Assembly (NCBI RefSeq): GCF_003324165.1
Contig: NW_025407851.1
Location: 416,641 to 480,640, forward strand
Length of the DNA: 64,000 nucleotides
From: Naegleria lovaniensis
Taxonomy: Eukaryota; Heterolobosea; Eutetramitea; Acrasida; Naegleriidae
Direction: 5' to 3'
A program made the translations under genes and the position numbers. This document shows, piece by piece, positions 24,314 to 29,699 of this stretch (position 1 is the first letter of the stretch; every line of letters starts with the position of its first letter). The notes under the pieces are model-generated. The model was not told where the DNA came from. It saw only the letters and a program-made list of their open reading frames with translations, and ran no database searches.

Positions 24314-24772
24314 TGGTGTGTTGGTTGTTCAAAATTAAAATGGAAGGTATGGTTGGAAAGAAGCAACGAAAGAGTAGTTGGCAGGTCTGTGAATATTTTT
24401 TATTTTTTCACCAATTTTTCACCCTGCAAGAATTGTACATGGCTATTGGACGGGGCGTTCCCAGGTCAACCCGGATAATTACTTTACAACGGATGATTTT
24501 TAGCACTCCTTGTGCTTGCGTTGGAACAGTTGCGAGATTTCCAACGATGGACTATTAGGTGGTGAATTGAAATGCATGAATTACATTTTCAAGAGCATGG
24601 AACTAAACAAATCAGCTTTGGTCTTCCAGCTGGAAGAACATTTTAATTGTTATACGTTCACCATGCCAAGCGCACTTTTGTATTGGTTACTTGTCGTTAC
24701 AAAGACAGGATGAAGCTGCTTTTGTTCGTCTCACTTTCCTTCTTGATGTTGCTCGCCTGTAGTAGTAGTAAT
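24314..24772. other. Upstream region of the CobW gene
   Basis: Spacer between the CobW start and the left end of the candidate transposon. No gene or RNA recognised. Confidence 0.4.
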
Positions 24773-24784
24773 CCTAGGAGCAGA

Positions 24785-25222
24785 GAATCGCGTCTGTATT
24801 TTACATAGTTATCGTCGGTAGTAAATGAAGCTTATTGAATGCATATTGTGCATAAGTAGTGTCTCCTTATTGCGGTCTGTTATTTCGAAGGTGATTCAAG
24901 CTTGTTTCCGCAGGTACAGCCGACGGTAAAACTCGAGATAAAAAATACTGTCGGGAGTTACTGACGAAAAGAATCCACCAAGACACAAAATACAGCCGGA
25001 AGAAGCATCATGTTAAATATTCTAATAATGGAGGTTTAATGAACGAAATAACGACGGAAATACTGTTGAAATAACCTACCACAACACCTGTGGCTGTTAC
25101 TATCGATGATAATGATGGAAATCTTCTTATTTTATTTTAATTCAATTTGAAATTTTTTTGGTTCAATATTTGATTTAAAATTGTTATTGCAAATGCATTT
25201 TAAATTTTATTGGCATCATAAT
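24785..25222. repeat. Left subterminal repeat region
   Basis: Contains copies of the GTATTTT/CCGAC motif, mostly as AAAATACTGTCGG-type complements: near 24792 (forward CTGTATTTT), 24940 (AAAAATACTGTCGG), 24987 (AAAATACAGCCGG) and 25052 (GACGGAAATACTGTTG), plus CCGACGGTAAA near 24919. They mirror the array at 28755-29095. Confidence 0.55.
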
Positions 25223-25925
25223 TTACAACTCAACAACGTTGGCAGGGTTGACAGGTCTTGAGCGTCTCATTTTCGCTGATGATGATTTACGTAAATGCTC
25301 TTGATACAATTTATATTCCTCAGAATTGATGTCATACACATCTTCGTCGTTTTCAAAGTCAAAAAGGTTGTCTGAATTTTTGCTTTTTGAGACTCCAGAT
25401 CTTCTACGAAGTTTCGCCTTCTTTTTTGCGTTCACAAATATTTGACTTATATGTTTCCTGCATATCTTTATCAACTAAAAACGATTGTTGTGAAATTTAG
25501 TCAAACAAATAACAAACACAACTTACTATTTCATCTACCTGGGATTTATCACAATCTGAAAGAATACTATAGTTTGGAAGACTTGAACAAAATGTTTGAA
25601 CATGAGTAACCACTGTGTCTGAAAGTTGAAGCTTTTGCTCTTGTGTTTGGGGATTAGAACAGATCTGAAGAGTTAAAATTTATAGGAGCAACATTACAAC
25701 TTACTTGGGAGAGAAATGAATGAAATTTCAATTTACAACATTGTTTGATGCTTCATGGAAAGAAATGATTACCAAGAAATATTGACAAGAAACAAACCTT
25801 GCGTTGTTCTGAGTTAAGAATTGCTTGCTTTCTTGAAAAAGTGTTATATTCAATGATGGAGCTATATAAGAAATGTTTTTTCGATTACGTTTCTTCTTGA
25901 TACCCCTTACAGTGTCAGTTGGCAT
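25223..25925 (-). CDS. Small basic accessory protein of the transposon (unrecognised)
   Basis: Four exons, 25925-25798, 25750-25705, 25664-25527 and 25474-25223, joined across very short introns of 47, 40 and 52 nt with matching phases, give 187 residues. The start MPTDTVRGIKKKRNRKNISY is basic. The middle is helical with several Cys and His (CCKLKFHSFLSQICSN). The stretch LIKICRKHISQIFVNAKKKA runs into a Lys/Arg cluster and then an acidic patch, and the end is basic (KSSSAKMRRSRP). No family recognised. Its position, divergent from the transposase inside the same inverted repeats, suggests an element-encoded DNA-binding partner like TnpA of CACTA elements. That role is inference, and a captured host gene is the alternative. 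Confidence 0.6.
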
Positions 25926-26061
25926 TATGATTGGTTTTTTTTTGTTTTGATTTTTGAAAATATTTAAACGGGTCAACTTTGAAACTATTGGAGAGAAGTT
26001 TTTGTAAGCGAGTTCAGATCGAGCGCGCACAGGAAGCGTTTTCTTTACAAAAAAAAATATC
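25926..26061. promoter_or_regulatory. Divergent promoter of the transposon genes
   Basis: The two element genes start 136 bp apart on opposite strands, so both promoters must lie here. The region has T- and A-runs next to each start and no subterminal repeat copy. Confidence 0.5.
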
Positions 26062-28674
26062 ATGCTTCAGAACAAGGCCGAATCCAAATTCTTTGACGTG
26101 GTTTCCTTGAGAATGTGCCACAAATGCAATGTACATGATTTGGAATTGTATATCCATAATTCGGCAAAGTGTAAAACCTTGAATCCCTCTATCAAATGCA
26201 CTTGTTTTTCATGCGGCACAACTTACTTCACTTGTCCTTTTTGCAAAGATTGCTTCTTCGACTCTCATGCATCCAATTTTTTAAAACACATGAAAAGATG
26301 TTCAAACAAAGATGAAGCTCAGAACCCCGTTTTCAAGTGTTGTTCCGAACAAACGACAGAGTTTGATCATTATTATTCTCATATCATCAAAAATCATTGT
26401 GGTCATTTGTGTTCGTTTTTAAAAAAAAGCAAACATGAGGATAAAATGGATGACGAAAAAAACAACAAGAAAACGACAGGAGTGGTTGTTATGGAGGAAG
26501 GTTGTGATATTGGTGGTTTATTGATGAACTTAGAAGCTCTCACTGCTGACGTGCAGAATTTAGTACAAACACCATTTCCAATATTTGAATTTTTTGAGAA
26601 ACTGAAACAATCTATGCCATATGTATCAAATCACTCGTGCGAGCATGAACAAGAATTTCACTTCCCTAAAGATCACCCTTTTGAAAGTTTTGAAGAATTA
26701 TGTTGTTTTATGTTAATCAATCACTTTGGAATTTCTAAACAAGCATATAATTTCATGATTCAAATGCTGAAATCAACATTTAAAGACCGTCCTGAGTTGA
26801 TGAAATTATTTGTGAGCTATGATACCTTGAAAGCAAGAGGAAATAATTTGAATCCCCAAAAACCCATGCAGTTCAATGATAATTTCATCCTTTACTCTGT
26901 ACAAGATACTATTCGAAACATGTTAATGGATCCGTATTTGGTCAACCAATTATGTCTCAACCGAGAAAAGCATCAACAACAGTTTGCAACCAAGCAACCA
27001 TTTCAATCTAAAATATTCAACAAAATTTTGGAGAAGTGTCAAAGTGATATATTCCCTCTTGTGATGCTGATATATGTGGACGATTTTGTAAAATTCAGAA
27101 CAAAGTCAACATCAACATGTGGAGTGTACTCAAGTTTGTTGAATTTCAATAGCGACTTCATGAGAAAACTTGAATCTATAAGCTTACTTGGGTTCTCAAA
27201 AACTCACTGCGATTTTTGGACAATGACAAGCCATTTGATGAAAGAAATTAATCACCTTGATGGGGAGATAATTGAAATAGAAGATCCCTCTACAGGTGAG
27301 TCTAGAAAATTTCAGATTGTTGTTGCAGGGTTTTTATGGGACACAGTCGAGAAGATGTATTCCTTGCAACTCATGAAAGAAGAATGTAGCCGTTGTGAAG
27401 GAATTTATGATAATCAACATAAAACACCAGATTGTTTATTTGGAGCGTCTACGATAGAAGATCCAAAGTATGTCACGCATTTCGAGAAAAGAAATATATT
27501 TGAAGCAAACACTGTTATTAATAGCATCGATTTAAGATCAAATGACAGAACAAAGGACAAGGGTTTTAAACCCTTAATATGGGAAGAAATGCAATTCAAA
27601 GATTTGAAATTATCTAAAGCGAAAATAACGCAAAAATTACGAGAATTACCTGTTCTGCATATCATAGATAATCCTTTTTTAAAATATCCTAATACTGTGG
27701 ATGCATTTCACAAAGCCTTAATTGATTTTTTCCATTTAGAGATCCAAGGAACTTTTCGAACCCAATTTAAAAGAACAATGAAAGCAATTCATTACTCAAC
27801 AATCATGGACGATTTTTTGGATGTTTGTGAGAGAGAAAGGTTGCCGAATGGCAAAAGGATTACAATGTACAGTGATATTGACAAACTATCCGGAACAGAG
27901 ATGCTTGAATTTATAGCAATAAGCGCTCCAATTTGGTACAAATTTCTATTCCTAAATACCAAATATTCAGATAATACTTTGGAGAAGAGACAAAAACTAT
28001 ATGAGTGTTGGATTTTACATTTGCAGTATTTTGTTCGATTGTTGCGGTTTGACCATACAGACCACGACTTAAAAGAAGCCGAGAAACTCTATGTAGCGTG
28101 GCGAGTTGCATATAGAAACTGTTTTGGATCCGAAAAGTGTAAATTTCCAAACTTTCATGCAGGCTGTCATATATTTGAGGATGTCGATGATATTGGTCAT
28201 GTTACTTGGTTTTGGACTCTCCTCTATGAGTTAAAACATTCCACGTACAAGCAATTCAATGACAAAAGTAACAAAAAACAGCTTGAAAAAAGGGCTTCTG
28301 AACGAGAAATGGTCATGAAAGCTCTTTTTACAAAATATCCTCAATGCAGAAAATTGATACCAAGAGCAAAAGAACCAGAATTCAAGCTTGAAAAAGACAT
28401 TTTTGTCCTATTTGAAACGGATCAAGGAGAAATGAACATTGCGTTCGTTAAACAAGTAACTGATAAGGTAGTTCTTAGTTCCTTGATCTTTGAAGTGAAA
28501 CACATGGATAACGTTTCCTATATGTATCACCTCAAATGCATTCCACAACTAATGCTATCAGCAATAGATATCAGCAAAGTCAAGTCTAAATGTAGCTGTA
28601 TTTGCTATTCATTGCCATCTGGGTTAAAGTGGCAATTGAATCAATTTGCATTTTGTTATAATTTTTGTAAATAA
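26062..28674 (+). CDS. Tnp2/Plavaka-like transposase (tentative superfamily)
   Basis: Single intronless frame of 870 residues. Residues 15-120 are Cys/His-rich with zinc-finger spacing (CHKCNVHD, CTCFSCGTTYFTCPFCKDCF). At about 330-350 is PLVMLIYVDDFVKFRTKSTS, comparable with the acidic-residue strand and following Ser/Thr region of Tnp2-type catalytic cores. At about 690-730 is FPNFHAGCHIFEDVDDIGHV followed by FWTLLYELKHSTYKQ, matching the late block (HLPE..., FWT.PFE..N...K) of Plavaka and Tnp2 transposases. The lack of introns contrasts with the host genes. No frameshift or stop is visible, so it could be active. A host-domesticated copy is possible but less likely given the bracketing inverted repeats. 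Superfamily assignment is from motif resemblance only. Confidence 0.6.
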   Translation: MLQNKAESKFFDVVSLRMCHKCNVHDLELYIHNSAKCKTLNPSIKCTCFSCGTTYFTCPFCKDCFFDSHASNFLKHMKRCSNKDEAQNPVFKCCSEQTTEFDHYYSHIIKNHCGHLCSFLKKSKHEDKMDDEKNNKKTTGVVVMEEGCDIGGLLMNLEALTADVQNLVQTPFPIFEFFEKLKQSMPYVSNHSCEHEQEFHFPKDHPFESFEELCCFMLINHFGISKQAYNFMIQMLKSTFKDRPELMKLFVSYDTLKARGNNLNPQKPMQFNDNFILYSVQDTIRNMLMDPYLVNQLCLNREKHQQQFATKQPFQSKIFNKILEKCQSDIFPLVMLIYVDDFVKFRTKSTSTCGVYSSLLNFNSDFMRKLESISLLGFSKTHCDFWTMTSHLMKEINHLDGEIIEIEDPSTGESRKFQIVVAGFLWDTVEKMYSLQLMKEECSRCEGIYDNQHKTPDCLFGASTIEDPKYVTHFEKRNIFEANTVINSIDLRSNDRTKDKGFKPLIWEEMQFKDLKLSKAKITQKLRELPVLHIIDNPFLKYPNTVDAFHKALIDFFHLEIQGTFRTQFKRTMKAIHYSTIMDDFLDVCERERLPNGKRITMYSDIDKLSGTEMLEFIAISAPIWYKFLFLNTKYSDNTLEKRQKLYECWILHLQYFVRLLRFDHTDHDLKEAEKLYVAWRVAYRNCFGSEKCKFPNFHAGCHIFEDVDDIGHVTWFWTLLYELKHSTYKQFNDKSNKKQLEKRASEREMVMKALFTKYPQCRKLIPRAKEPEFKLEKDIFVLFETDQGEMNIAFVKQVTDKVVLSSLIFEVKHMDNVSYMYHLKCIPQLMLSAIDISKVKSKCSCICYSLPSGLKWQLNQFAFCYNFCK

Positions 28675-28754
28675 ATATTAATTTTCTAAATATTTCAAAA
28701 ATCAACAAGTCTTATTCAACAAAGTATCGATGAAAATAATTCGTGGTACTTTCA

Positions 28755-29095
28755 TCCGAACCAATCCGAAGGTATTGTACGTCGTTGTTATCATAATTAA
28801 TTTCAATCATTATTTTGTCAACATTATTCTCCGTCCATATCTTGCCAGTGGTATTTCATCCGACAGTATTGGTCGAGCAGTAAAATATGTCATATATTCG
28901 TCGGTCAGTATTTTCCTCATTTACTTTTCCGACGGTATTTTGATGACCAGTATTATGCACATGTAATTGCCCTGTTGTATTATGTCGTCCTTGATGCCAT
29001 GGTTAATATCCATCAGTATTTTAACCAGGGATATTCTCCATCCGTATTCGTCCAGCAGTATTTTAATCGAAGGTATTTTTCGATGGTAGATAAAC
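28755..29095 (+). repeat. Right subterminal repeat region
   Basis: About ten copies of a 12-14 bp motif approximating CCGACAGTATTTT. Examples are CCGAAGGTATTG (28766), CCGACAGTATTGG (28859), GGTCAGTATTTT (28903), CCGACGGTATTTT (28929), GACCAGTATTAT (28944), ATCAGTATTTT (29013), CAGCAGTATTTT (29053) and CGAAGGTATTTT (29069), with degenerate copies between. The region holds no gene. Confidence 0.6.
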
Positions 29096-29163
29096 GTCTT
29101 ATTTTTGACCGCACTTATTTTCTGATTACTCATGCGGTATACCTGCTTCCTTCTGCTCCTAGG

Positions 29164-29699
29164 ATGATGCTAGCGCCACCCAGAAAAAAATGCTTCGTCG
29201 ACATCTTTGACTTCATCCTTCCATCATGATTTACTTTGCGGTCGTTACTAACAACAATACAATCACCCGATTGATCGCTGAATAAATCCTTCTCGTCCTA
29301 ATAAATTTGGGACACAATTATAGAGTTTGTACATGTTTGGTCAAATCATCTAGGTTTTACGAGAGACATATCTCATATCTAGATACGAGATAGTAGTGGG
29401 ATACGGAATATTGGCCAAATCTACCAGATACTCTCAACTTCTACTAACCTGTTTCAGGAGGTTAGTTTTTCAAGTAATGATAATCCCGAAACAAGATTCG
29501 CTCACATGAGCATGCATTCAAACACGCAATGACGACCACCACCCAAACACTCACTACCTGAATGGAATGGCGATCTTCGTGTTGTTGAGGTTATTGTAGT
29601 GAGAATGATCCATAAGCGAACGCTCATGGTTCTCCTCGAGGTGCAACCACGTTGAAAAAAGCAGCTTGATCCATAACCTCTGGCACGCTGGAATTGAAA
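29164..29699. other. Upstream region of RWP-RK gene 1
   Basis: Contains a 22-bp near-perfect palindrome at 29370-29391 (ATCTCATATCTAGATACGAG and its complement, one mismatch pair) and a stem-loop with 7-bp arms CTAACCT/AGGTTAG at 29444-29465. No gene seen. Confidence 0.45.

Follow-up and report, generated by a model that had tools for sequence, protein, structure and literature searches.

The question raised by this locus is whether a 4391-bp unit in Naegleria lovaniensis, closed by exact 12-bp inverted ends, is a DNA transposon, and to which known kind, if any, it belongs. The unit occupies positions 24773-29163 of the window, by which we mean the whole 64,000-nucleotide (nt) stretch of DNA analysed; all positions are given in window numbering, and C-numbers (C3, C6, C28 and so on) denote contigs of N. 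lovaniensis. The first-pass annotation, made from the letters alone, had read it as a two-gene DNA transposon with a CACTA-like layout and ends unlike those of CACTA. Our analysis agrees on both counts: an 870-codon open reading frame (ORF) and a divergent, spliced gene of 187 residues lie between the ends, and the termini are CCTAGG. The two-gene unit is a real DNA transposon that has apparently moved recently. Very probably, it is a recently active cut-and-paste element from a divergent lineage of the CMCT (CACTA/Mirage/Chapaev/Transib) clade with atypical CCTAGG ends. In kind it is a CMC-type two-gene transposon, which is a known kind; that its lineage is an undescribed one is plausible. 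Papers are cited by PMC number.

The perfect 12-bp ends noticed at first are the only two exact matches to CCTAGGAGCAGA in the window, and the identity between the left and right ends breaks off after these 12 bp:

24773..24784, plus strand: left 12-bp terminal inverted repeat CCTAGGAGCAGA, exact match
29152..29163, minus strand: right 12-bp terminal inverted repeat, exact match

The N. lovaniensis genome searched comprises 30.69 Mb in 97 contigs, and the published genome is slightly larger (30.84 Mb, 111 contigs; PMC6125883). Three more N. lovaniensis genomes, of other strains, are mentioned in PMC9928731. It contains 22 exact CCTAGGAGCAGA matches (12 forward, 10 reverse), compared with 3 for a reversed control pattern. 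All of these except one, at C46:188997, which is without further similarity to the element, are ends of element copies. When the end regions were used as queries in place of the 12-mer, 23 matches were obtained, namely the same 21 ends and two to a remnant in C3. The CCTAGG terminus is reached by 21 of the 23 (11 of 12 left and 10 of 11 right), and the other two are those of the C3 remnant. This remnant (C3:660900-662100) is a degenerate miniature of about 0.3 kb with both end regions matched at 84 and 87%; judged by eye, its left end has lost CCTAGG.

The search for further copies, which the first-pass annotation had proposed, gave nine two-ended copies: six are full-length (4391 bp), two measure 3521 bp and one measures 3608 bp. 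Among the full-length copies four are identical, and the other two, in the window and in C28, are 2 nt apart from each other and 14 nt each from those four. Such near-identity of the full-length copies indicates recent movement. The two 3521-bp copies are identical to each other and are without 27662-28531, and the 3608-bp copy has five gaps, the largest at 27744-28512; both losses fall within the transposase gene. Copies with such internal losses are the usual non-autonomous derivatives. Three more copies are single-ended, those in C41 and C85 reaching the contig end and that at C43:5661 bordering a stretch of N, and a partial copy in C32 has 84.5 and 89.9% nucleotide identity over its two matched parts.

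The right flank of the C6 copy includes, as read from the translation, a cytochrome b5-like reading frame a short way downstream of the copy. There may be a preference for insertion close to gene starts.

Most two-ended copies of the element are flanked by a short duplication, which for the copy in the window is AT:

24771..24772, no strand: left target-site duplication AT, directly outside the end
29164..29165, no strand: right target-site duplication AT, directly outside the end

The flanks outside CCTAGG agree at 2 bp in eight of the nine two-ended copies, with AA three times, TT four times and AT once, and in none of the nine at 3 bp or at any length up to 8 bp. As a control, mismatched left-right pairings of the flanks agree at 2 bp in 19 of 72 cases, owing to the A/T-rich targets, and for random flank positions the rate is 6.8% (0.068). 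Outside the one end that the single-ended C41 copy retains, the bases are ta. When the flanks of the nine copies are joined, the longest frame over the junction is obtained with 2 bp dropped in three copies and with 1 bp dropped in six, which counts neither for nor against the 2-bp duplication.

The larger gene carries the predicted catalytic residues of a transposase:

26062..28674, plus strand: transposase gene, 870 codons, open in all six full-length copies
27079..27081, plus strand: D340, predicted catalytic, invariant in three families and probably to be preferred over D290 by context
27340..27342, plus strand: D427, predicted catalytic, invariant in three families
27385..27396, plus strand: C(2)C motif, C442-S-R-C445, invariant in three families
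28156..28170, plus strand: H(3)H motif, H699-x3-H703, invariant in three families
28228..28230, plus strand: E723, predicted catalytic, invariant in three families

Relatives of the 870-residue protein outside its own family were found in this genome alone, in C15 and C51 (one family), in C59 and, as a piece, in C5; they are 27-45% identical to it piecewise. An alignment of three families, made of the window protein and stitched C15 and C59 rows, has 105 invariant columns, among them D340, D427, C442, C445, H699, H703 and E723. The pattern D, D, C(2)C, H(3-4)H, E arose once in 100,000 shuffles of the invariant letters, a figure that serves as a guide only, with generous limits chosen in knowledge of the pattern. 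D290 meets the spacing limits too, giving two solutions for the first D (D290 or D340). The N-terminus of the window protein is cysteine-rich, and Pfam gave no zinc finger there; in the C59 relative, a C2H2 zinc finger is matched in the N-terminus at E 2e-4 and 22 bits, below the cut-off of 25.2.

The C15 and C51 sequences are 99% alike over 527 nt. Their common segments differ in order and orientation, and comparison of the sequences suggests that rearranged relics make up this diverged family. The C59 relative is a broken one, about 30% identical to the window's transposase, and stands between perfect 65-bp direct repeats (C59:89386-89450 and 92227-92291) which a genome search matches in those two places alone; they far exceed the target duplications of CMCT-type elements. 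Ends of the diverged families were not found, and the inverted repeats near C15 and C59 included none that was convincing.

The second gene lies head-to-head with the transposase gene:

25223..25474, minus strand: exon 4 (83 codons and stop); the spliced product matches annotated C9374_012423
25527..25664, minus strand: exon 3, between GT..AG introns 25475-25526 and 25665-25704
25705..25750, minus strand: exon 2, between GT..AG introns 25665-25704 and 25751-25797
25798..25925, minus strand: exon 1 with the start codon, by the splicing model
25926..26061, no strand: 136-bp gap between both start codons, presumed divergent promoter by its position

Minus-strand ORFs in 25925-25223 are joined into four exons by three GT..AG introns of 47, 40 and 52 nt, giving 187 residues. 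The annotated N. lovaniensis protein C9374_012423 also has 187 residues and is 99% identical to the product over its full length, which supports the predicted splicing. The small divergent protein was expected to be basic, and it is, with an isoelectric point of 9.6, 33 K/R and 19 D/E, computed on the annotated variant. It was also thought unlike known proteins. In keeping with this, it has no family above the cut-off in Pfam (best Mus7, E 0.0035, and TAF10, E 0.51), none in NCBIfam and no match in the PDB up to E 10. A histone-fold reading of this protein, based on the single TAF10 match, was dropped. The gene is open in all six full-length copies: in the window copy by splicing, in the C28 copy, which differs only outside it, and in the four identical copies, which include that in C6, whose annotated product has 187 residues. 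A diverged relative is found in C51 (E 1.2e-4 in the genome search; 31% identity over 80 residues, one stop), about 1.4 kb from the diverged transposase relic and head-to-head with it as in the element.

A close relative of the second protein exists in N. fowleri as FDP41_001973, of 130 residues. With an 11-residue gap set aside, its first 123 residues include 122 identical ones, and the last 7 diverge. This near-identity suggests that the element or its remains are present in N. fowleri, by descent or by transfer, the comparison being of the second gene's relative alone.

The subterminal regions contain a repeated motif, for which 14 sites centred on GTATT, 11 of them on the right and 3 on the left, were built into a matrix with the consensus TCCG(A/G)CAGTATTTT:

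24942..25071, minus strand: left subterminal cluster of 4 minus-strand sites, matrix scan at threshold 8
28764..29079, plus strand: right subterminal array of 11 sites, all on the plus strand, matrix scan at threshold 8 and GTATT count

At threshold 8, 11 sites fall in 28676-29163, all on the plus strand, and five in 24773-25222 (four on the minus and one on the plus strand), compared with one in the 3453-bp middle and 41 in the 59,609 bp outside the element. The right, left, middle and outside counts are 15, 7, 5 and 121 at threshold 6, and 9, 5, 0 and 10 at threshold 10. The matrix was trained on the same sites, so that this enrichment is partly circular. Counted independently of the matrix, the right 501 bp holds 11 GTATT on the plus strand, where the window averages 0.73 per 501 bp, and the left 700 bp holds three mirrored AATAC and one GTATT. 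Dense mirror-image arrays had been described at both ends. The motif is there, and all but one of the threshold-8 sites share one orientation with respect to the nearer end, but the arrays are lopsided, with 11 sites on the right and five on the left, of which four are mirrored; they are dense on the right only. The maize TnpA site, which we take to be CCGACACTCTTA, starts like the element's motif, a likeness that could not be confirmed in print.

The element is assigned to CMCT by its motif pattern, its layout and the length of its target duplication, and not by a scored alignment, so that its membership is a predicted one. The clade is characterized by a D-D-C(2)C-H-H-E signature and by target duplications of 2 to 5 bp (PMC12730594); an RNase H fold is likewise expected of its members. 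Here the duplication is 2 bp in eight of nine two-ended copies, and the catalytic signature is conserved across three families. In mouse RAG1, an immune-system enzyme that has this signature in common with CACTA-type transposases, the corresponding residues are D600, D708, C727, C730, H937, H942 and E962 (PMC4914335). The order D, D, C(2)C, H-H, E is that of Transib/RAG1, with roughly similar spacing to RAG1, and the second H is 20 residues from E in both RAG1 and the element. The distance between the two D residues is 108 in RAG1 (D600-D708) and 87 in the element (D340-D427), and that from D to C is 19 (D708-C727) and 15 (D427-C442), respectively. The Tnp2-like transposase of the first-pass annotation therefore stands at the level of the motif, in its conserved CMCT signature, and not at the level of the profile, where neither Tnp2 nor Plavaka is matched.

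Several results speak against placing the element in CMCT. Its ends depart from the 5'-CA..TG-3' that CMCT elements show 'in most cases' (PMC12730594). From C445 to H699 there are 254 residues, compared with 207 from C730 to H937 in RAG1, which has H(4)H instead of H(3)H. The 870-residue protein is without a transposase match in Pfam, NCBIfam or PDB sequences, and hhalign finds nothing between its family and the Tnp2-type family of the same genome, both profiles being thin (nine rows, partly misaligned, against three). In addition, the two-ended C90 copy is without matching flanks. It sits on a 19.8-kb contig, and its left flank is the flank of the single-ended C43:5661 copy (99.8% over 1503 nt); from this common flank, recombination or misassembly is the likely cause of the exception.

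The profile search against Tnp2, Plavaka and the KDZ (Kyakuja/Dileera/Zisupton) group that had been advised for the 870-residue protein came back empty: PF02992 (Tnp2) gives nothing up to E 1, PF18759 (Plavaka) matches neither this protein nor anything else in the genome, and the Pfam KDZ domain is not matched. The sole Pfam match is LRR19-TM at E 0.03, below the cut-off. A PDB search with the alignment as query gave 42 chains, 40 of them zinc-finger proteins and the others 3i2b and 3hm8, none a transposase. A search of the 870-residue ORF against 5.8 billion proteins gave 5634 candidates and none at E 1e-3. With the alignment as query, 6562 candidates yielded a single match at E up to 1, in N. 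lovaniensis; the length limits of the search tool may conceal short annotated pieces in other Naegleria. The matched protein, C9374_007569 (452 aa), is 100% identical over 47% of the query and spans the internal deletion of the 3521-bp copy type. Viral contigs had no match to the transposase or to the genome's Tnp2-type protein.

That last protein belongs to a separate Tnp2/EnSpm-type family, which PF02992 detects in the genome at E 3.7e-6; three places are matched, two above the cut-off. It has 786 aa at C3:272600-275900 and occurs also in C36 and C25. Scanned directly, it reaches 27.7 bits where the cut-off is 28.6. Since it falls just under the PF02992 cut-off, the negative Pfam result for the 870-residue protein has limited power.

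This limit bears on the reading in which the element forms no separate lineage but is a routine member of EnSpm/CACTA or Plavaka, its transposase having done no more than drift. PF02992 is a weak detector here, and subterminal repeats are a CACTA trait. Moreover, CACTA-type elements with CAC..GTG ends can have 2-bp duplications (PMC6004678), as does PlavakaA (PMC12730594), and the genome paper lists 38 'CMC-EnSpm' repeat annotations covering 69,762 bp, which may or may not include the element (PMC6125883). However, the ends are CCTAGG..CCTAGG and not CAC..GTG, TGT..ACA or CATCA..TGATG, the 870-residue protein matches neither PF02992 nor PF18759 although PF02992 does detect the genome's own Tnp2 family, and its family has no profile similarity to the Tnp2-type one in the hhalign comparison of thin profiles. 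We therefore regard simple drift as unlikely, while granting it appreciable weight. Membership in the KDZ group instead of CMCT is far less probable: the large size of the protein and its cysteine-rich, zinc-finger-like N-terminus would suit it, but the KDZ elements described in PMC12810828 have duplications of 4-8 bp and ends of 139-241 bp, compared with 2 bp and 12 bp here, and the 870-residue protein has C(2)C and H(3)H and no Pfam KDZ match.

The remaining alternatives concern the content of the unit. The second gene could be a captured passenger, dispensable for transposition, and its lack of any family above the cut-off or any PDB match is consistent with this. The head-to-head layout, however, recurs with the diverged copy of the gene in the C51 family, and the gene is open in the six full-length copies, which makes a mere passenger doubtful, with about a third of the weight at best. 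We regard the second gene as belonging to the element; most likely it encodes an end-binding or regulatory partner, whose role would be like that of TnpA in maize En/Spm. Maize En/Spm has two proteins, of which TnpA is such an end-binding or regulatory partner. Finally, a host gene pair carried in a segmental duplication, with no transposon at all, would explain the flank common to the C43:5661 and C90 copies. This is the sole similar flank pair at E 1e-6 among 13 loci compared, and the identity of the copies stops at the 12-bp repeats with 2-bp duplications. The otherwise distinct flanks refute segmental duplication in practice, and its probability is next to nil.

For the element as a divergent CMCT transposon, a mechanism can be proposed. 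The N-terminal zinc fingers, the basic second protein or both would bind the TCCGRCAGTATTTT sites, and binding of these mostly same-facing sites would bring both ends together. The transposase would then cut at CCTAGG, excising the element, and the ends would be joined with a 2-bp stagger into A/T-rich DNA. Which end is bound first may depend on the lopsidedness of the arrays.

The element might further represent a CMCT lineage of superfamily rank, so far found in Naegleria only. Such a lineage would be marked by palindromic CCTAGG ends replacing CA..TG, by A/T dinucleotide targets other than TA, and by a required small basic head-to-head partner, for which N. fowleri has a gene whose first two thirds are almost unchanged. 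We advance this rank tentatively, with somewhat less than even confidence. No description of the element was found in the available portions of the literature, Repbase being outside the scope of that search. With this element, the clade from which RAG1 arose would gain a divergent representative in Heterolobosea, one that has apparently been mobile in recent times. Its ends, which break the CA..TG rule, bear on what CMCT ends must look like, and the element bears on the age of the two-protein design. With identical copies in a culturable amoeba, which is not known to be a pathogen, mobility is directly testable, and the element could possibly serve as a genetic tool.

In its ends, its A/T duplications other than TA and its second protein, the element matches none of the lineages compared, as judged by their published descriptions. 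RAG1 gives no PDB sequence match to the 870-residue protein, and RAG recombination signals are unlike the element's ends. EnSpm/CACTA elements resemble it in layout, and maize En/Spm has subterminal repeats and two proteins as well. They differ in their CAC..GTG ends, in the Tnp2 domain PF02992 and in a usual duplication of 3 bp, with 2-bp CACTA cases known (PMC6004678). PlavakaA and PlavakaB share the CMCT signature and the short duplication (2 bp in PlavakaA, 2 or 3 in PlavakaB), whereas their ends are TGT..ACA or CATCA..TGATG (PMC12730594). ESTA (PMC12730594) and CNEST (PMC12810828) both have a CMC-type transposase and a 2-bp duplication, which in these is TA and in the eight matching copies here is AA, TT or AT. 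CNEST of Cryptococcus, a recent CMC lineage without a Repbase match that was named a new superfamily, starts with CACGG and has 33-bp repeats and about 7.2 kb (PMC12810828). Sly1-1 of Neurospora, at 11.5 kb, is much longer, and the likeness is by description only; it has a comparable gene pair, and in another fungus homologues of both genes are adjacent and divergent, as in the Naegleria element (PMC4592977).
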